A stretch of 43,017 bases of DNA, taken from contig CALMON010000008.1 of assembly GCA_937871785.1 (NCBI GenBank), positions 1 through 43,017 of the forward strand, in the 5' to 3' direction. The position numbers were made by a program, and so were the translations under genes. Below the pieces are notes generated by a model. It made no database searches. It saw only the letters and a program-made list of their open reading frames with translations, and had not been told where the DNA came from. Numbering within the stretch: the stretch's first letter is position 1; the number at the start of each line of letters is the position of its first letter. This document shows positions 7,598 through 26,326 of the stretch, piece after piece. Origin of the DNA: an uncultured Granulicella sp. Lineage in GTDB: Bacteria; Acidobacteriota; Terriglobia; Terriglobales; Acidobacteriaceae.

Positions 7598-9145
7598 ATG
7601 GTCCCCGTACAACAATCCGATCTTATTGAATCCGTTCGCGCCGCGCTCCAGTACATCAGCTTTTACCACCCGGTCGACTACATCGAAAACCTGGCGCGGG
7701 CCTATGAGCTGGAAGAAAGCCCGGCCGCCAAAGACGCGATGAAGCAGATTCTGGTGAATTCGCGCATGTGCGCCGAAGGCCACCGCCCCATTTGCCAGGA
7801 CACCGGCATTGTCACAGTCTTCATCAAGCTCGGGCTCGAGTGCCACCTGCTCGATGGCGACTCGCCGGCCACGATGTCCCTGCAGGAGATGTGCGACGAA
7901 GGCGTTCGCCGCGCCTGGCTGGACCCCGACAACAAGCTGCGCGGCAGCATTCTCGCCGATCCGGCATTTGCCCGCAAAAACACGAAGGATAACACCCCCT
8001 GCGTGGTCGAGGTGTCGCTTGTTCAAGGCGGCAAGCTTGATGTCACCGTCGCGGCTAAAGGGGGAGGCTCCGAGGCGAAGTCGAAGTTCGTCATGCTCAA
8101 CCCGTCGGACTCGGTCGTCGATTGGGTGCTCAAAACTATCCCGACCATGGGCGCGGGCTGGTGCCCTCCCGGCATGATCGGCATTGGGCTGGGAGGCACG
8201 GCGGAAAAGGCCATGCTGCTGGCGAAACAGTCGTTGATGGGCGATATCGACATGCAGGAACTGAAGGCGCGCGGGCCGGAAACGGCGATCGAAAAGCTGC
8301 GCGTGGAGCTGTACGACAAGATCAACGCGTTAGGCATCGGCGCGCAGGGTCTCGGCGGCCTGACGACCGTGCTGGACGTCAAGATCCTCGACTGGCCCAC
8401 CCACGCCGCCAACCTGCCTGTAGCGATGATTCCGAACTGCGCCGCCACGCGCCACGCGCATTTTGTCATGGACGGCACCAGCCCGGTGTACCTTGACCCG
8501 CCCTCGCTGGAGCATTGGCCGAAGCTCACCTATGAAGCTCACGGGGCGACCCGCGTCGATCTCGCGACGGTGACTCGCGAGGACGTGAAGACCTGGAAGC
8601 CCGGGCAGGTGCTGCTGCTGAACGGCAAGCTGCTGACCGGGCGCGACGCCGCGCACAAGCGCATGACCGACATGCTCAACCGCGGCGAAATGCTGCCGGT
8701 GGATTTCACGGGCAAGTTCATCTACTACGTGGGCCCGGTAGACGCGGTGCGCGACGAGGCCGTCGGCCCGGCAGGCCCTACAACCGCCACGCGTATGGAC
8801 AAGTTCACGCGGCAAATGCTTGAGTCCACCGGCCTGCTCGGCATGGTTGGCAAGGCGGAGCGCGGCGTCACCGCGATCGACGCCATTCGGGACAACGAAG
8901 CCGTCTACCTGATGGCGGTGGGCGGCGCGGCCTACCTGGTCTCGAAAGCGATCAAGCACTCGACGCTGCTGGCGTTCCCGGACCTCGGCATGGAGGCCAT
9001 CTATGAGTTCGACGTGGTGGATATGCCGGTGACGGTGGCGGTCGATAGCCAGGGGACCAGCGTTCACATCACGGGCCCGGAAGAGTGGCGCGAGCGCATT
9101 GCCCGCAGCATGGCAGTGGGCGGCGTGCCCATTCTGGGCCAGTAA
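7598..9145 (+). CDS. class I fumarate hydratase (FumA/FumB type)
   Basis: RPICQDTGIVTVFIKLG, CPPGMIGIGLGGTAEKAMLLAK, GAQGLGGLTTVLDVKI, YVGPVDAVRDEAVGPAGPTTATRMDKF. Confidence 0.95.
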   Translation: MVPVQQSDLIESVRAALQYISFYHPVDYIENLARAYELEESPAAKDAMKQILVNSRMCAEGHRPICQDTGIVTVFIKLGLECHLLDGDSPATMSLQEMCDEGVRRAWLDPDNKLRGSILADPAFARKNTKDNTPCVVEVSLVQGGKLDVTVAAKGGGSEAKSKFVMLNPSDSVVDWVLKTIPTMGAGWCPPGMIGIGLGGTAEKAMLLAKQSLMGDIDMQELKARGPETAIEKLRVELYDKINALGIGAQGLGGLTTVLDVKILDWPTHAANLPVAMIPNCAATRHAHFVMDGTSPVYLDPPSLEHWPKLTYEAHGATRVDLATVTREDVKTWKPGQVLLLNGKLLTGRDAAHKRMTDMLNRGEMLPVDFTGKFIYYVGPVDAVRDEAVGPAGPTTATRMDKFTRQMLESTGLLGMVGKAERGVTAIDAIRDNEAVYLMAVGGAAYLVSKAIKHSTLLAFPDLGMEAIYEFDVVDMPVTVAVDSQGTSVHITGPEEWRERIARSMAVGGVPILGQ

Positions 9146-13559: not shown

Positions 13560-16217
13560 ATGCTTCCGTTTCCGCAAAGAATTGCTTTTCTGCTGCTTGT
13601 GCTCGTCACGGGAGTTCTGGGCGGGCGCGGTTTCCTTCGCCTTTATCGGCGTATTGCCGCTGGCCAGCTGGACACCGATCGGCGCTTCAACCATCCGCTA
13701 CGGCGCGTCTGGGACGCTGCCGTCACCACGCTCACGCAGAGCCGCACGTTTCGCAAACGGCCCTGGATCAGTTTCTTTCACTCCTTCATTTTCTACGGCT
13801 TTGTCTTTTATCTGCTCGTCAATCTGCTCGATGCGATAGACGGGTTCGTTCCGTTGTCGTTCAGGTCGCTGGGCGCGTTTGGGGAGTTTTACACCTTGTG
13901 CGCGGATGTCCTGAGCGCCCTTGTTCTGTTTGGGACGGTCGCGCTGCTTTGCCGGCGTTTTCTCGTGCCAAGCCGGTGTGACTTCACCTTCAATCCGCGC
14001 ACGATGCTGCACCGCGACGTAGAAACCCGGTACATCACGCGCGACTCTTTGATCGTGTCCAGTTTTATCCTGTTCCACGTCGGTTCGCGAGCGATAGGTG
14101 CCGGTGCGAAGATCGCGCTCGAAGGCGCAACCCGCTATGCTCCGTTCGCGACTCTCGTGTCCCACCTGTTTTCTCCCGCAAACGCCACAGCGTGGCGGAT
14201 TTTTGGTTACTGGGGCGCTCTCGGTAGCGTTTTGCTGTTTCTGCTCTACTTCCCGTATTCGAAGCACGTCCACATCTTTTTAGCGCCTGTGAAGTACATG
14301 GTCGCGCGCGACGTTCCGACCGGCGTGCTATCCGCGCTCGATTTGGACACAGCGGCGGATGAGCCGAAACTTGGGGCCAACAAGATTGAAGACCTGGCGT
14401 GGCCACGGCTGCTCGATGCGTACGCCTGCATTCAGTGCAATCGTTGCCAGGATGTGTGCCCCGCTACGGCGACAGGCAAGGCGCTCAGTCCTTCCGCGCT
14501 CGAAATCAACAAGCGCATGGAGTTGAACGAGCTTGCGCGGCACCAACCCGGCTTTGAGCACGGCGAGTCGAGTCCGTGGCCGCTTCTCACTTTCGCGCTT
14601 TCTCCGGAGGCGCTCTGGGCCTGCACAACCTGCGGTGCCTGCGTGGATGTTTGCCCCGTGGGCGACGAACCGATGCTCGACATCGTCGACATACGCCGGC
14701 ACCAGGTAATGGTGGCGGGGGACTTTCCCGTGCCCCTGCAAACCGCGTTTCGCGGCATGGAACGCACACAGAATCCGTGGGGCATCAACCCGGCCAAGCG
14801 CATGCATTGGGCCGCCGGTCTGCAAGTCCCGACGACCGAGGACAATCCGCAGCCGGACGTCCTTTTCTGGGTTGGCTGCGCGGCCAGCTACGATCCCGAA
14901 TCGCAGAAAACCGCGCGGGCTTTCGTGCAACTGCTGGACCACGCCAAAGTCGACTTTGCCGTTCTCGGTAAGCGCGAGTGCTGCACAGGCGACAGCGCCC
15001 GTCGTGCCGGAAACGAGTTTCTGTACCGCCAGCTTGCGGACGGCAATGTTGCCACGCTGAACGAGATCAGGCCCAAACTGATCGTTGCTACGTGCCCGCA
15101 CTGCATGAACTCGCTCGGTAAGGAATATCCGCAGATCGGCGGCGACTACAAGGTGATGCACCACACCGAGTACCTTGCGGGCCTGATCGCGGAGGGCAGG
15201 CTCGTGGCCGAGCCTACCGCGGCGACGGTCGCCTTCCATGACCCCTGCTACCTTGGCCGTCACAACGCGGTGTACGACGCGCCGCGCAACATCCTCAATG
15301 TGCTGAGCCACTCGGTCGTGGAACTCGACCGGCATCGTGAGAATTCTTTCTGCTGCGGCGCGGGAGGCGCGCAGTTCTGGAAGGAAGAAGAAGCGGGCAC
15401 CGAGCGCATCTCCGACAATCGCTACCGCGAAGCGCAGGCCGTCCTGGCCGGCGCGGAAGAAAAGGTACTCGCAGTCGGCTGTCCATTCTGCAAGAGCATG
15501 TTGAACAGCACACCGGCGAGCGCGGACAAGCCGCTCGCGGTGCGCGACCTCGCGGAACTGCTCTGGGAAGGAGTGCGGAAGCGAGAAGGCGGGCACGTCA
15601 CTGAAGGCGCGCCAGAAGCGTTGATGCCGACTTCGGCGCTTCCGGTAAGCTCCGGGGAGTTGTCCCTGGTTGCAGCCATAGTGCCCGAACGGGTGCCCTC
15701 CACGCTGGAAAAGCCGGTTGCGCATTCCGTGAAATCTCCGCTGCCGGAACTTCGCGACAGTGCAGGTCCCGGGAGCGCCGCGGAAAGCGCCACACCCCTT
15801 GCGGCTCAGGCTCCTGCACGTAAAAAGTGGAAGGGAACAGCTGCGGCGCTGCCCGTGTCGTCTCCCGAAGCAACGGTTGCCACGACGATGGTTTCCGCTC
15901 CGGCGCGAACTCCGCCTCAGGGGACAGAACTGAGTGCCGACACAGGACCGCCGTTGCCCGAAGCAGCCACGTCCCCGGTGCTGACTCCTGCGCCCGAACG
16001 GAAAAAGTGGCAAGGGAAATCAAAAGCAGCCGCAGGCGCGGTCCCGGAGCCCGTTACGCCGCCTCCATCCATACCGCCGCCAGTCGATGCGTCCCCGGCA
16101 CCTACGGCCGTTCGCAAAGCCTGGGTTCCCAAGCGTCGGGCCCCGTCGGACGACTCGACAGAAAGGGCAGCGCCGGCAATGGCGAACACGACAGAGGAAA
16201 AGCGACAAGACCCGTAA
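13560..16217 (+). CDS. membrane-bound Fe-S oxidoreductase, ETF:quinone oxidoreductase type (NarI-like TM domain + 2x[4Fe-4S] + CCG domains), with ~200 aa Pro/Ala C-terminal extension
   Basis: N-terminal TM helices; CIQCNRCQDVCP and CTTCGACVDVCP; HDPCYLGRHN, ENSFCCGAGGAQFW, VGCPFCKSML; directly downstream of etfBA. Confidence 0.88.
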   Translation: MLPFPQRIAFLLLVLVTGVLGGRGFLRLYRRIAAGQLDTDRRFNHPLRRVWDAAVTTLTQSRTFRKRPWISFFHSFIFYGFVFYLLVNLLDAIDGFVPLSFRSLGAFGEFYTLCADVLSALVLFGTVALLCRRFLVPSRCDFTFNPRTMLHRDVETRYITRDSLIVSSFILFHVGSRAIGAGAKIALEGATRYAPFATLVSHLFSPANATAWRIFGYWGALGSVLLFLLYFPYSKHVHIFLAPVKYMVARDVPTGVLSALDLDTAADEPKLGANKIEDLAWPRLLDAYACIQCNRCQDVCPATATGKALSPSALEINKRMELNELARHQPGFEHGESSPWPLLTFALSPEALWACTTCGACVDVCPVGDEPMLDIVDIRRHQVMVAGDFPVPLQTAFRGMERTQNPWGINPAKRMHWAAGLQVPTTEDNPQPDVLFWVGCAASYDPESQKTARAFVQLLDHAKVDFAVLGKRECCTGDSARRAGNEFLYRQLADGNVATLNEIRPKLIVATCPHCMNSLGKEYPQIGGDYKVMHHTEYLAGLIAEGRLVAEPTAATVAFHDPCYLGRHNAVYDAPRNILNVLSHSVVELDRHRENSFCCGAGGAQFWKEEEAGTERISDNRYREAQAVLAGAEEKVLAVGCPFCKSMLNSTPASADKPLAVRDLAELLWEGVRKREGGHVTEGAPEALMPTSALPVSSGELSLVAAIVPERVPSTLEKPVAHSVKSPLPELRDSAGPGSAAESATPLAAQAPARKKWKGTAAALPVSSPEATVATTMVSAPARTPPQGTELSADTGPPLPEAATSPVLTPAPERKKWQGKSKAAAGAVPEPVTPPPSIPPPVDASPAPTAVRKAWVPKRRAPSDDSTERAAPAMANTTEEKRQDP

Positions 16218-20288: not shown

Positions 20289-21875
20289 TTATCGCGAAGC
20301 CAAAAAGTGCTCGGCGGTCCGTAGCGACAGGGCCATGATGGTCAACGCCGGATTCGCCGCCAGCGAGGACGGGAAGACCGAGTTGTCGCAGATCCACAGA
20401 TTGCCGAGGTCGTGGCTTTGCCCGAAAGACCCGACCACAGACGCTTCCGGCGACGACCCCATACGGCAGGTACCGATGGTATGGGCTGTGCGCTCGAGCG
20501 TCCACATGTCCTCGGCCCCGGCGGCCTGCCATGCGGCTTTCAGCAGCGTGACGGCGTGCTCGCTCATGGCCAGCTCGCTTTTGCCGTAGCTGAAGTGGAC
20601 GCGCGGCTTCGGCAGGCCGTTGCGGTCGACCTCTTCAGAAAGCTCCAGATAGTTGCCCTTCACGGGAACGCAGTCGCCGTTGATCCCAATGCCCGCGACG
20701 AAGTTGTACCGGTCCAGGTAGCTGACGAGCTCTTCCCCAAACAGGCCGCGACCGCGCGCGACACCCTGCGCCCAGGTGACGGGTGTTACGCCAAGGCTCT
20801 GGACGAGGTAGCCCCCTGTAAACGGCGCGCCGGCGGGCCGCAGCATGTCTTCCGAAATTACCGTCGCCGGGAAGCCCTTGTTCATACCGACGCGTCCCGC
20901 AAAGGTGCCCCACACCTGTGTGGCGACGTGCGCCATAAAGTTGCGGCCCACCTGTCCGCTGCTGTTGGCGAGCCCGGTGTGCAGCAGCAACCGCGGCGTT
21001 TCAATGCCTCCCGCGCAAAGAAAGACGGCGCGGGTACGTTGCCGGCGCTCAGTTCCCGCTTTGCCCGCGGTTCCCGTCTGGCGGAACAGCACAGACGTAA
21101 TATTGCCGCCAGATCCGCGCTCAAAACCGTGGACAAACGAGTCAGGCCGAATTTCGGCTCCGTCGCGCACAGCCCAGGGCAGATACGTAGCGTCCATACT
21201 CGCTTTGGCGCCGTTGCGGCAACCCTGGTGACAAAATCCGCGGTTGACGCAGGCCGGCCGCTGCCCGTACTCGGGCCGGGCGTAGGGCTCGCTCAACGCG
21301 GCAATCGGCGCGGCGGAGGTCCGGAGGCCGAGCGCTGCGAACCCGCGTTGCATCAACTGGCCGGGAGCGTTGATCGGCACGGGACCCGTGGGGTAGCGCC
21401 GGCCGCTGTCCCACGGATAGTGCGCCGGCCCGCTCACACCGAGGAACGTTTCGACTTCCTCATAATAGGGAAGCAGGTCGGCGTACGTGAGCGGCCAGTC
21501 GGCGCCTTCGTGGAAGTCGGTGTGGATGCGCAGGTCACGGGGGTCGGCGCGAGGCACGAACGCGCCCCAGTGCAGCGTGCTGCCGCCTACGCCGGTGCCG
21601 CTGTTGTTGCCTCCGAAAACAACCGACGTGTCCCCCGCGCTCAGTCGCTCGTCGGTCCAGTAAATTTTGGAAGCAGAGGTCTCGTCGGTCGCAAACTGCT
21701 CCGCGGGAGCTTCCCACCAGGGTCCGGCTTCCAGAGCGACGACACGAAGACCGGCTGCCGCCAGCTTGGCCAGCAGCGGGGCTCCCCCGGCACCCGTGCC
21801 GATGATGACGGCATCGACCACTTCGTCATCTTGGTAGCGGCGCATCGAGATACGATTGTGTGCGAGTTGATTCAT
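20289..21875 (-). CDS. GMC family oxidoreductase (gluconate/sugar dehydrogenase large-subunit type)
   Basis: AVIIGTGAGGAPLLAKLAAAGLRVVALEAG, CVNRGFCHQGCRNGAKAS, CAGGIETPRLLL, HTIGTCRMG..., C-terminal ANPALTIMALSLRTAEHF. Confidence 0.94.
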   Translation of the reverse strand: MNQLAHNRISMRRYQDDEVVDAVIIGTGAGGAPLLAKLAAAGLRVVALEAGPWWEAPAEQFATDETSASKIYWTDERLSAGDTSVVFGGNNSGTGVGGSTLHWGAFVPRADPRDLRIHTDFHEGADWPLTYADLLPYYEEVETFLGVSGPAHYPWDSGRRYPTGPVPINAPGQLMQRGFAALGLRTSAAPIAALSEPYARPEYGQRPACVNRGFCHQGCRNGAKASMDATYLPWAVRDGAEIRPDSFVHGFERGSGGNITSVLFRQTGTAGKAGTERRQRTRAVFLCAGGIETPRLLLHTGLANSSGQVGRNFMAHVATQVWGTFAGRVGMNKGFPATVISEDMLRPAGAPFTGGYLVQSLGVTPVTWAQGVARGRGLFGEELVSYLDRYNFVAGIGINGDCVPVKGNYLELSEEVDRNGLPKPRVHFSYGKSELAMSEHAVTLLKAAWQAAGAEDMWTLERTAHTIGTCRMGSSPEASVVGSFGQSHDLGNLWICDNSVFPSSLAANPALTIMALSLRTAEHFLASR

Positions 21876-23344
21876 CGGGCGTCCTGTCGTGCTTGTGCCG
21901 TGGTGTTTTCGAAATCCTCGAGTTCTCCGAGGCGGATGTGTGTAAAGCCGTGATCGTCGGCGAAGCCTGTAAAGCCGACGCGTTCGAGCGTGCGTGGGTC
22001 GGTCATATACAGTTTGGCCAGTTCACCGCGCACATCTTCAAACCAGTCTTTCATCTGCTCCGGAGTAAAGCTTTCCGCACCCGCACCGAGGTACAGAGCG
22101 CCGAGCAAGCCTCTGCCCAGCGTTCCGGCAGCAGCCTGCTTTAAAAGCTCATCCTGACGGGCCCCGTCCAGAGCGGCAAACGGAACGCCGAACGTGCGTT
22201 TCGACGCCGCCTCAAACGACGCGAGTCCCTGCAGCCATGCGTCCGCGTCCGCCGGAAGCGAAGCACGGCGCGAGCCGTCCTGTTGTGGCCGCGTCAACTG
22301 CTCTTCAAGCTTGCTGGCGAGGTCTTGCGGTGCCGCCGGAACGACACGGCGAGCCAGCGCTCGTGCGGCGTGGCGTTGCGAGGAAGTGAAAATTGCCGGA
22401 AAGAACGCCTGCGGCGTAAGGCGCTGTAGCAGGAGACTACGCGTTTGTGGCGACGTGCAATCGGAATCGATCAAACGCAGAAAGCCCGGCGAAAGTGTCG
22501 TTGCAGGCAAGCTCTCAGTGCGCTCTGGCCACGACATTCCAAGCGACGCGACAAAATCGGTGATGTGCTCGATGAGTTCCCATGGCCGCTCCAGCGGCCC
22601 CAAATGGCTGCTGCCTTCAAGAGGCACAAGCGTAGCCCGGCTGAAGTGAGCAAGCGTGTGCTTGCGTTGCGCCGCAGGGTTCAGCGCAGACTCTTCCGTG
22701 CCCGCCAGCACAAGCGCCGGAGTAGAAAGCGTGCCGACGCGCTCAGCCCAATCTTCCTTGCTGCCTCCAGTCATCCAGGCGCGCAGAGCGGCGCGGCTCA
22801 TGTGCAGGACGTCTGCTGTGGTGCGCTGTTCGATTGCCTCGGGCAACGCGAGTTTGCCGACATTGTCGTCGACGAAAGCCTTTGCGTGCTCACGGTCTTT
22901 TTCGGCGTCGCCGGTGCTCTGCCCTAGATCGCGCAAAGCGTCTTCACGCTTGCTTTCGGTCATCGGTTCAACGCCCGGAGGCGAGGGCGAAACCAGAAAC
23001 ACTCCACGGAGGTTTTGTAGATCCACCTCCCCGTTTTCGGCAGCACGGGTAAGCACCGCCGCGAGCTTTCCGCCCATTGAGTGACCGGCGAGAAACCACG
23101 GCTCCTTAGAAGCGGCACCGCGCAAGCCGCGGACGGTTTCGAGGACGGCCGTCGACATCTGCGCTACGGAAAAGCGGTCGTCATCGACAGCGCGGCCAAA
23201 GCCTGGGAGATCGAGGGCGGCGCAACGAAAGTCACGCGCCACCAGCCCGGCGCTTACCTCGGTCCAGGTGTTCGCGCTGCCGCCAAGCCAGTGGAGCATC
23301 ACGATCAAGGGGCCATGTTTGCCGTTTAGAGTGTACGGAAGCAT
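21872..23344 (-). CDS. fusion: alpha/beta-fold hydrolase (N) + gluconate 2-dehydrogenase subunit 3-like domain (C)
   Basis: N: HWLGGSANTW, GHSMGGKLAAVL nucleophile elbow. C: WLQGLASFEAASKRTFGVPFAALDGARQDELLKQAAAG...WFEDVRGELAKLYMTDPRTLERVGFTG, small-subunit-like. ATGA overlap with GMC gene. Confidence 0.8.
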   Translation of the reverse strand: MLPYTLNGKHGPLIVMLHWLGGSANTWTEVSAGLVARDFRCAALDLPGFGRAVDDDRFSVAQMSTAVLETVRGLRGAASKEPWFLAGHSMGGKLAAVLTRAAENGEVDLQNLRGVFLVSPSPPGVEPMTESKREDALRDLGQSTGDAEKDREHAKAFVDDNVGKLALPEAIEQRTTADVLHMSRAALRAWMTGGSKEDWAERVGTLSTPALVLAGTEESALNPAAQRKHTLAHFSRATLVPLEGSSHLGPLERPWELIEHITDFVASLGMSWPERTESLPATTLSPGFLRLIDSDCTSPQTRSLLLQRLTPQAFFPAIFTSSQRHAARALARRVVPAAPQDLASKLEEQLTRPQQDGSRRASLPADADAWLQGLASFEAASKRTFGVPFAALDGARQDELLKQAAAGTLGRGLLGALYLGAGAESFTPEQMKDWFEDVRGELAKLYMTDPRTLERVGFTGFADDHGFTHIRLGELEDFENTTAQARQDAR

Positions 23345-23617
23345 ACAGGGTAGATGCGGCTCGAAGGCATTGTCTGAAAGTTTATTGCGGCGAACTGCAT
23401 TCCATCATGCGGAATCGGACGAACATGCAATGAGGTGAAATCGCTCCACAGCTTGTGGCAGGGCAAGCGAGCCAGCGGCACTTCCGCGCGTAGTGTACGT
23501 GCGGTGCACGACATTATGACGATGTCGAGACGAGGCCGCGGGCGACCGCAATTCCCATCCTTCGCGCGCATCTTAGTAGAAGTACGAAGGAACAGTTCAC
23601 TCGGGAGACGGAACATC

Positions 23618-24409
23618 GTGGCAAATCAATTGGCTTTAGTAACAGGAGCTTCAAGTGGCATCGGGCTGGCACTCGCCCGGGAGTTGGCCGAACGCGGATA
23701 CGATCTCGTGATCTGCTCGGCAGGGGACAGGCTCGACGCGGTTGAGCATGAGTTGAGCGGCGGCGCGGTGCAGGTATTGGAGGTGAAAGCCGACCTCGCT
23801 ACACGAAAGGGTGTGGACGAACTATGGACAAAGGTTGCCGCGATGGGTCGGCCTGTCGATATCGCTTGTCTCAACGCGGGTGTGGGTGTCGGCGGTTTGT
23901 TTGCGGAAACGGACCTCGACGCCGAGTTGAACATGATCGAGTTGAATTGTGTCAGCACGGTGCATCTGGCAAAGCATGTAGTCAAGCAGATGGCGGCGCG
24001 TAATGCGGGTAAGATTCTTTTCACCGCATCAGTTGCCGGCGAAATGGTGGCACCGCGGGAAGCGGTTTACGCCGCAACCAAGGCTTTCGTTCTGTCATTC
24101 GCTCATAGTGTTCGCTATGAGTTACGCGAGACTGCCGTCACTGTAACTGCTCTGCAACCTGGCCCCGTCGATACGGATTTCTTTCATCGTGCCGGCATGG
24201 ACGATACTGAAGTTGGACAGACTGGAAAGAAGGATAGCGAGCCCGAAGACGTCGCGAAGCAGGGAATTGATGCCCTTCTGGAAGGCAAAGAGCACGTCTA
24301 CGCCGCATCCATGAAACTGAAGATGCAAGGCATGATGTTTAATCTGGTACCCGGAGACGTGAAGGGTGCCATGCACGAGAAACAGGCAAAACCTCTCAAC
24401 GAAAAGTAA
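23618..24409 (+). CDS. SDR family oxidoreductase
   Basis: LALVTGASSGIGLALARELAERG, LNAGVGVGG, YAATKAFVLSF; GTG start with GGGAGA upstream. Confidence 0.92.
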   Translation: MANQLALVTGASSGIGLALARELAERGYDLVICSAGDRLDAVEHELSGGAVQVLEVKADLATRKGVDELWTKVAAMGRPVDIACLNAGVGVGGLFAETDLDAELNMIELNCVSTVHLAKHVVKQMAARNAGKILFTASVAGEMVAPREAVYAATKAFVLSFAHSVRYELRETAVTVTALQPGPVDTDFFHRAGMDDTEVGQTGKKDSEPEDVAKQGIDALLEGKEHVYAASMKLKMQGMMFNLVPGDVKGAMHEKQAKPLNEK

Positions 24410-24453
24410 GTTACGTTCGACTTCCTCACGCTACCTGTTTTGAAAGGAACTTT

Positions 24454-25107
24454 ATGTCTACACCGTTGACCGAAAAGCCTGCAGTCGAACCCTTGCCGCG
24501 TACGGCAGGCGCGGCGTCCATGATCGATGGCCACTATGCTCCACCACCTAAAGACAAAGATGGAAAAATGTGGGTTCGCACGTCCGCCATTATCCAGGCC
24601 GACCCACAGACTTTGTATGAACGCTGGAGTGATCTCGAATCAAGCCCGAGTTGGCAGGAAGAGATTACTTCCGTTAAAAAGACAGGGCCAAAAACGTCTC
24701 ACTGGACGATGAAGTCGGGCGACAAAACGATTGAATGGGACGCGGAAACATTGGCAAGTGAACCGGGTAAACGCATCGCCTGGCATTCCACGGCGGGCGA
24801 TATCCATGAAGCAGGAGAAGTGGTGTTTGAGCCCGCACCGGCAGGTCGTGGAACAATCGTCACGATTCTGATGATGTTTGAAATGGGTAAGATTGCCGCT
24901 ATGTGGGAGACATTTGTCGGGCGTAACCCGAAGCAGGCTGTGGTCGAGAATCTACGCCACTTCAAAGCTCTGGTGGAAGCGAACGAGATCCCGCGGGTGT
25001 ACCCCGTCCCGCATGGACCGCGCGGAACGATCGGTAGTCTCAAGGAGTCGGCTTTCGGTGAGAAACTGCCGATCCCCGCCGGTTCCAACGCTTCACAACC
25101 CGCCTAG
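24454..25107 (+). CDS. SRPBCC family (polyketide cyclase/dehydrase-like) protein
   Basis: [33 protein letters not shown]...[21 protein letters not shown]. Confidence 0.88.
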
Positions 25108-25147
25108 CCTGGCGACGTCGAGCCCCGTTGCGGGCAAGGAGATTGGT

Positions 25148-26326
25148 ATGAAAGCAGTTTGCTGGATGGGAACGAGCAAGGTTGAAACACTTACGGTGGA
25201 TGACCCGCAACTATTAAACGCGCAGGATGCCATCATCAAAATCACCCGGACGGCGATTTGCGGATCCGACCTTCACCTGTACGACGGCATGATCCCCACC
25301 ATGGAAGCAGGCGATGTGCTTGGCCATGAGTTCATGGGCATTGTTGAAGAAGTCGGCAAGGATGTCACCAAGATCAAACGTGGTGACCGTGTCGTTATTC
25401 CGTTTACGATCGCCTGCGGTAACTGCCTTTTCTGCAAGAAAAAGATCTGGGCTGCTTGCGATAACAGCAATCCAAATGCTCAGTTGATGGAAAAGGCGTA
25501 CGGCTATTCCGGGTCGGGTCTTTTTGGCTACTCCCATATGATGGGCGGCTATGCGGGTGGGCAAGCGCAATATGCTCGTGTTCCTTACGCCAATGTCGGT
25601 CCATTGAAGATAGAGAGTGACCTGTCGGATGAGAAAGTACTTTTCTTATCGGATATTTTTCCGACCGGTTACATGGCCGCCGAAAATGCCCAGATCACGG
25701 AAGGCGATACGGTAGCTGTCTGGGGTTGCGGTCCTGTCGGTCAATTCGCAATTGCGAGTGCATTCATGCTTGGTGCTGCGAAGGTTATCGCTATCGACCG
25801 GTTTCCTGAGCGGCTGGAGCTCGCCCGCTCCCTCGGCGCAATCACGGTTGATTACAGTGAAGAAGATGTAAGTGTTCTCGAAGCCCTGAAGGATCTTACG
25901 GGCGGCATTGGTCCGGATGCGTGCATCGACGCGGTTGGCCTTGAGGCTCACTCTAGTGATCTGCAAGGCGTTTACGACACCGTAAAAACGGCCTTGTTGC
26001 TCGAAACCGATCGCCCTATCGTTCTTCGGCAGGCCATCATGGCTGTTCGAAAAGGAGGTACGTTGTCGATCCCTGGGGTGTACGGCGGCCTGCTCGATAA
26101 GGTTCCGTTTGGAGCTGCTTTCGGGAAGGGCATCACCATGAAGATGGGTCAGACAAACATGCATAACTACATGACCCCTCTTCTGGAGCGCATTGAAAAA
26201 GGACAGATCGATCCGTCGTACATCATTTCCCATCGCATCACTCTCGACCAGGCACCGGACATGTACAAGATATGGCGAGACAAAAAGGAGAAGGTGACAA
26301 AGATTGTGATCGATCCTTGGGCCTGA
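25148..26326 (+). CDS. zinc-dependent alcohol dehydrogenase (glutathione-independent formaldehyde dehydrogenase-like)
   Basis: [79 protein letters not shown]. Confidence 0.93.

Follow-up and report, generated by a model that had tools for sequence, protein, structure and literature searches.

A fused alpha/beta-hydrolase and Gluconate_2-dh3-like small subunit paired with a GMC dehydrogenase: a candidate unexported oxidation-hydrolysis complex

Small subunits of the Gluconate_2-dh3 family (PF13618), as in gluconate 2-dehydrogenase and many GMC pairs, are encoded with a GMC oxidoreductase, and canonical members are ~200 aa proteins with a twin-arginine start. We analysed a stretch of 43,017 nucleotides from an uncultured Granulicella sp. 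(contig CALMON010000008.1; hereafter the window) in which a GMC gene likewise has a PF13618-type partner. Unlike canonical members, this partner and its branch have no such start and carry a 270-residue hydrolase in front. Is this fused gene genuine, and what might a dehydrogenase subunit do with a hydrolase where an export signal is expected? The features of the pair are collected in Table 1.

Table 1. Positions of the fusion gene, the GMC gene and their functional residues in the window
Feature	Position	Strand	Basis
Fusion gene, alpha/beta-hydrolase + Gluconate_2-dh3-like small subunit, 490 aa	21872..23344	(-)	ORF, Pfam, AF2, orthologues
Hydrolase domain, residues 1-268	22541..23344	(-)	Abhydrolase_6 + Foldseek/HMM
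Catalytic Ser89 codon (GHSMGG)	23078..23080	(-)	Ser in 70/73 aligned fusions
Catalytic acid Glu218 codon	22691..22693	(-)	D 69, E 3, gap 1 among 73 fusions
Catalytic His247 codon	22604..22606	(-)	His in 72/73 aligned fusions
Flexible linker, ~residues 269-285	22490..22540	(-)	pLDDT <50 at 276-281
Small-subunit half, residues 286-490	21875..22489	(-)	PF13618 match 325-452
ATGA stop/start overlap (translational coupling)	21872..21875	(-)	sequence
GMC oxidoreductase catalytic subunit, 528 aa	20289..21875	(-)	Pfam GMC_oxred_N + GMC_oxred_C
Cys209, Cys215, Cys219, putative 3Fe-4S-ligand counterparts	21219..21251	(-)	alignment to FAD-glucose dehydrogenase
GMC catalytic His465 codon	20481..20483	(-)	87/87
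GMC catalytic Asn508 codon	20352..20354	(-)	87/87

Architecture of the fused gene and its coupling to the GMC gene

The fusion ORF starts with ATG and ends with a TGA at 21872-21874 on the minus strand. Pfam matched Abhydrolase_6 to residues 14-256 (E 1.6e-15, 58.8 bits, cut-off 26.3), with the GHSMGG motif at residues 87-92, and PF13618 to residues 325-452 (E 4e-11, 43.8 bits, cut-off 23.4), which places the C-terminal half in the Gluconate_2-dh3 family. Both halves had been read in this way in a preliminary description made from the sequence alone, and the Pfam search bears it out. An AlphaFold2 (AF2) model built with 43 homologues gave two confident domains (pLDDT 89.3, pTM 0.87) joined by a low-confidence linker at ~276-281. 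In the window genome, which is 83% complete, no PF13618 protein other than the fusion was found. Public NCBI records name the fused genes that we checked just "alpha/beta hydrolase" or alpha/beta (fold) hydrolase, so public annotation conceals the system.

We observed that the small-subunit half is recognisable at the family level. Pfam detected PF13618 in 34 of 43 fusions, and a profile-profile comparison with canonical Tat-type subunits of the same order gave a probability of 94.9 (E 4.6e-8, 89 columns). PDB searches with the small-subunit profile and with the canonical PF13618 profile both reached no dehydrogenase small subunit, and homology to the gamma chain of the Burkholderia cepacia FAD-glucose dehydrogenase (BcGDH) is therefore not established by sequence. 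For the whole fusion, Foldseek listed hydrolases only, which left the C-terminal half without a fold match.

The fold (AF2, Foldseek) and the Ser-acid-His triad place the N-terminal half in the alpha/beta-hydrolase superfamily. The catalytic acid is Asp in most relatives and Glu218 in the window protein. Because the triad is conserved, the hydrolase domain is probably active. Its best Foldseek/HMM matches were the EaEST esterase, the type-A feruloyl esterase 7dq9 and the enol-lactonase 2xua, the last being among the top Foldseek folds. The best-scoring NCBIfam models, enol-lactonase and MenH, stayed far under their equivalog cut-offs (PcaDC 71 bits vs 390, PcaD 49.8 vs 255.85, MenH 62 vs 208.55). 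PcaD enol-lactonase, MenH and aryl/feruloyl esterases share the fold and the Ser-Asp/Glu-His triad with this half, but at such scores their specificity is not transferable. Judged by these comparisons, the lactonase likeness is generic, with esterases scoring equally well or better.

The start codon of the GMC gene (ATG, 21873-21875) lies within the stop codon region of the fusion, as the preliminary description had stated. Among 88 loci whose small-subunit half was recognised, 87 showed an NTGA overlap, in which a TGA stop and an NTG start share four bases (ATGA 53, GTGA 21, TTGA 13); a few genomes were fetched twice, so these loci are not independent events. The proposed pairing and translational coupling of the two genes also held across the survey described below.

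Conservation of the fusion

To survey the fusion, GTDB-species contigs were scanned with the GMC subunit, using two peptides, which yielded a non-exhaustive list of at least 80 loci. Fusions were called with home-made profiles of both halves trained on four Granulicella sequences; the Pfam matches are independent of these profiles. A scan of genome contigs with the fusion protein itself gave no matches, the back-translated patterns being too specific. The fusion lay directly upstream of the GMC gene at 70 of 80 loci, in Acidobacteriota, Pseudomonadota and Actinomycetota. Carriers include Granulicella, Acidiphilium and other Acetobacteraceae, Sphingomonas, Aureimonas, Comamonadaceae, Microbacterium and other Microbacteriaceae. 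The full-length fusion and its GMC gene also occur in three other species of the genus, with 47-55% identity and on contigs that measure between 125 kb and 1.06 Mb. Their gene neighbourhoods are unrelated, and the Granulicella relatives have no neighbours in common.

Three of the ten exceptions are truncated by contig ends. In Edaphobacter the hydrolase, small subunit and GMC are three adjacent separate genes in the same order, and in Terriglobus roseus the hydrolase gene is divergent and sits beside the small-subunit gene. No hydrolase was detected at the loci of two Aureimonas and one Antarcticirhabdus, which keep the small subunit (+ GMC); in Granulicella rosea only the GMC gene was found, with neither hydrolase nor small subunit detected. 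When mapped on the GMC tree, the fused label required 6 changes compared to 19.3 with shuffled labels (a quick tree with long branches).

The split genes of Edaphobacter speak for an assembly or frame error that joined two genes in the window; the preliminary description had itself raised an assembly join. The same join recurs in ~70 assemblies that are independent of one another, some of them large contigs from cultured strains or plasmids recorded as circular, and the AF2 model resolves two confident domains. We regard an artefact as refuted, although split homologues do exist. The hydrolase/small-subunit fusion is real, old and widely conserved.

Inferred location and proposed electron route

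We inspected N-termini for export signals. Neither window protein has a hydrophobic or twin-arginine N-terminus, in agreement with the preliminary description, and the same was true of the fused, split and hydrolase-less small subunits of the branch. The fused proteins start straight at the first hydrolase strand. The twin-arginine signal that marks the canonical PF13618 small subunit is thus absent from the window protein and its relatives; in a sample of canonical PF13618 proteins of that bacterial order, most begin with MxRRxxLxLL. Because signal-like N-termini are absent, we infer that the pair is located in the cytoplasm.

In BcGDH the small subunit is a Tat hitch-hiker (PMC9727119; a similar role is described in PMC8630023), and Cys213 of the alpha chain forms a disulfide with it (PMC9727119). 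The residue aligned with this cysteine is Val210 in the GMC protein of the window, which is what a reducing compartment would lead one to expect. The pair might instead leave the cell by some export path not yet recognised and be a normal periplasmic dehydrogenase whose N-terminus is unusual; such a reading would agree with the periplasmic location of all well-known GMC and small-subunit relatives (general knowledge; PMC9727119, PMC8630023). The lack of a signal-like N-terminus in the inspected small subunits and the window GMC protein, together with the loss of the intersubunit-disulfide cysteine, makes this very improbable.

The AF2 model of the GMC protein (pLDDT 87, pTM 0.91; residues 88-104 weak) matched the fructose dehydrogenase large subunit and BcGDH alpha best in Foldseek (E 1e-42 or better), followed by pyranose/C-glycoside oxidases (1e-27). 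With TM 0.80-0.83 at ~25% identity to the two best matches, its fold is closest to that of the FAD-GDH/FDH-type GMC dehydrogenases. We aligned its cysteines to the B. cepacia enzyme (u144829), with ligand numbering by elimination from Cys213, the disulfide cysteine (PMC9727119). All three of Cys209, Cys215 and Cys219 were present in 76 of 87 GMC proteins and all three were missing in the other 11, which all come from one Microbacteriaceae branch. Such joint loss is as predicted by a metal site, and the cysteines are putative 3Fe-4S cluster ligand positions. In BcGDH the 3Fe-4S cluster is the primary acceptor of FAD electrons (PMC9727119). No multiheme cytochrome c gene adjoins the GMC gene in the window or appears among the recurrent neighbours, and no cytochrome or other electron-acceptor gene was seen linked to the pair.

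The cysteine-less Microbacteriaceae branch of the fused system (L134, L137-L139, L150, L153-L158) offers a natural comparison for the electron route.

BcGDH (PDB 6a2u, 8grj) and the Gluconobacter fructose dehydrogenase (7w2j, 8jej) share with the window protein the three aligned cysteines in 3Fe-4S positions, and in them, too, a small partner subunit is encoded with the GMC protein. They differ in that the small subunit takes them out through Tat and electrons pass to a heme c subunit, whereas the pair has no export signal or linked cytochrome. In the pair, moreover, the disulfide cysteine is Val, a hydrolase is fused, and profile searches with the small-subunit sequence do not reach the solved ones. 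Methylacidiphilum GmcA/GmcB (PMC8630023) likewise combines GMC large and small subunits, but is Tat-exported and has no hydrolase. Clusters of a membrane protein, subunit 3 and GMC in related genomes, at L066, L078 and L079, lack a Tat signal, as the fused branch does, and L079 has a stop/start overlap with its GMC gene like that of the window pair. In contrast to the fused pair, these clusters have no hydrolase, a membrane protein of ~316 aa precedes, and the GMC protein is just ~40% identical; TPP-enzyme-like and enolase-superfamily-like genes also precede the pair in L078 and L079.

Proposed coupled chemistry and gene neighbourhoods

The preliminary description had proposed a cytoplasmic two-gene module coupling oxidation of an alcohol or sugar to hydrolysis of the product. 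Its structural side stands: the domains, the GMC pairing, the coupling, the lack of a Tat or other signal, and conservation of both catalytic sites, the last as a bifunctional oxidation-hydrolysis module predicts. For its chemistry, we give about an even chance to an unexported two-chain complex in which a sugar/alcohol GMC dehydrogenase works with a tethered hydrolase that acts on its product. The GMC chain would be an FAD dehydrogenase of the fructose/FAD-glucose-dehydrogenase type, with electrons probably leaving through the 3Fe-4S cluster. The other chain would be a PF13618-type small subunit with a working serine hydrolase in place of the twin-arginine export signal. Its small-subunit half would keep GMC binding and thereby hold the hydrolase beside the dehydrogenase. 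The cytoplasmic substrate of the GMC chain would be a sugar, a polyol or another alcohol; the hydrolase tethered beside it would then open the oxidation product, in the simplest case a lactone formed at an anomeric carbon, and so pull the reaction forward. Complex formation, order of steps and substrate class are what we infer from sequences and models.

The main rival reverses the order: the hydrolase would first cleave an ester, such as an aryl or sugar ester from plants or lichens, leaving the freed alcohol to be oxidised by the GMC chain. The sequence data are almost equally compatible with this order. Esterases, among them the type-A feruloyl esterase, are the nearest hydrolases of solved structure, and alcohol dehydrogenases occur among GMC enzymes, a Methylocella GMC enzyme converting acetol (PMC8630023). 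Our impression from the strain names is also that many carriers were isolated from leaves or lichens or as endophytes. We nevertheless consider hydrolysis first unlikely, since the GMC fold groups with sugar dehydrogenases and the recurrent neighbours indicate sugars rather than aryl esters.

These neighbours are a GH15 trehalase-like gene (TREH_N + Glyco_hydro_15), found within ~4.5 kb of the pair at 15 of 80 loci, and a YghA-like SDR, found within the same distance at 41 of 80. With two GH15 genes per 4 Mb genome, ~0.4 GH15 neighbours would be expected by chance in 80 loci, which are not independent. The GH15-bearing loci belong to Actinomycetota, alpha- and betaproteobacteria and Edaphobacter. 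On a plasmid of a leaf Comamonadaceae strain, GH15-SDR is divergent from the fusion-GMC pair. Together, these GH15 and SDR genes suggest that in other phyla the pair is connected with the metabolism of sugars. Granulicella itself lacks GH15 and YghA-SDR neighbours. The divergent SDR, SRPBCC and Zn-ADH genes of the window (23435-26326) are not the YghA-type set. The GH15 matches of the window genome lie on two other contigs, which rules out such a neighbour here.

Alternatively, the hydrolase could be merely parked on the small subunit. The fusion would then serve co-expression and stability, and the enzymes would have substrates with no relation to each other or take part in a shared stress response with no sequential chemistry. 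The plasmid p1-AD3 of Roseomonas mucosa (L195) encodes a free hydrolase with 41% identity to the fused one (7950-8789), which adjoins GH15 and has neither small subunit nor GMC beside it. Judging by this gene, the hydrolase can take part in GH15-linked chemistry where no dehydrogenase is present, which argues against the complex. A few Aureimonas-type relatives, in which the small subunit and GMC are kept and the hydrolase is undetected, also count against it, as do the missing GH15/YghA-SDR neighbours in Granulicella, the lack of a linked electron-acceptor gene and the generic nature of the lactonase likeness. In addition, Dps, Rieske-FAD reductase, SDR and GH15 neighbours resemble stress-related genes; Dps adjoins the pair on annotated plasmids of two Sphingomonas. 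Against a parked hydrolase, the fusion is kept over three phyla, the split genes are still adjacent and ordered, and both active sites are conserved. We judge it improbable.

In Sphingomonas loci L097, L098, L102, L105, L106, L109, L193 and L197, Dps is divergent from fusion-GMC, with a Rieske-FAD reductase in most. An EcfG-type general-stress promoter was considered upstream of 28 alphaproteobacterial loci and rejected, with just 3 scattered matches.

The coupled oxidation-hydrolysis complex can be extended to a broader, more tentative reading. Here, a cytoplasmic 3Fe-4S GMC sugar dehydrogenase spread over three phyla may have had its export subunit turned into a tethered hydrolase, giving a dehydrogenase-plus-lactonase (or esterase) in one complex. 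This tentative reading would also tie the complex to a sugar-stress gene cluster with GH15 and SDR, carried by bacteria associated with plants, lichens and bogs. Each part belongs to a known family; in the literature searched, most subscription papers excepted, we found no description of the hydrolase/small-subunit fusion, its breadth or the loss of the export signal, and the combination is new within that scope. That in a large branch the Tat hitch-hiker subunit bears an enzyme where a signal is usual suggests an intracellular role for the family as well, and would set the binding role of the small subunit apart from its export role. With just two genes, the system lends itself to biochemical work and perhaps to the development of biosensor enzymes, because the nearest solved relatives are direct-electron-transfer glucose and fructose dehydrogenases (PMC9727119).

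Two minor observations concern other genes. The Klebsiella pneumoniae plasmid pKpn13-1 (L196) carries a related free hydrolase (7959-8747, 32% identity) that adjoins a LysR regulator and sits between IS26 copies on a conjugative plasmid; other plasmids of Klebsiella and of Salmonella gave comparable matches. In the window, the gene at 13560-16217 (+), read by eye, looks like a membrane Fe-S oxidoreductase of the HdrD/CCG kind, and its protein ends in an Ala/Pro-rich tail of ~200 residues with a repeated basic-Trp motif (RKKWKG, RKKWQG, RKAWVPKRR).
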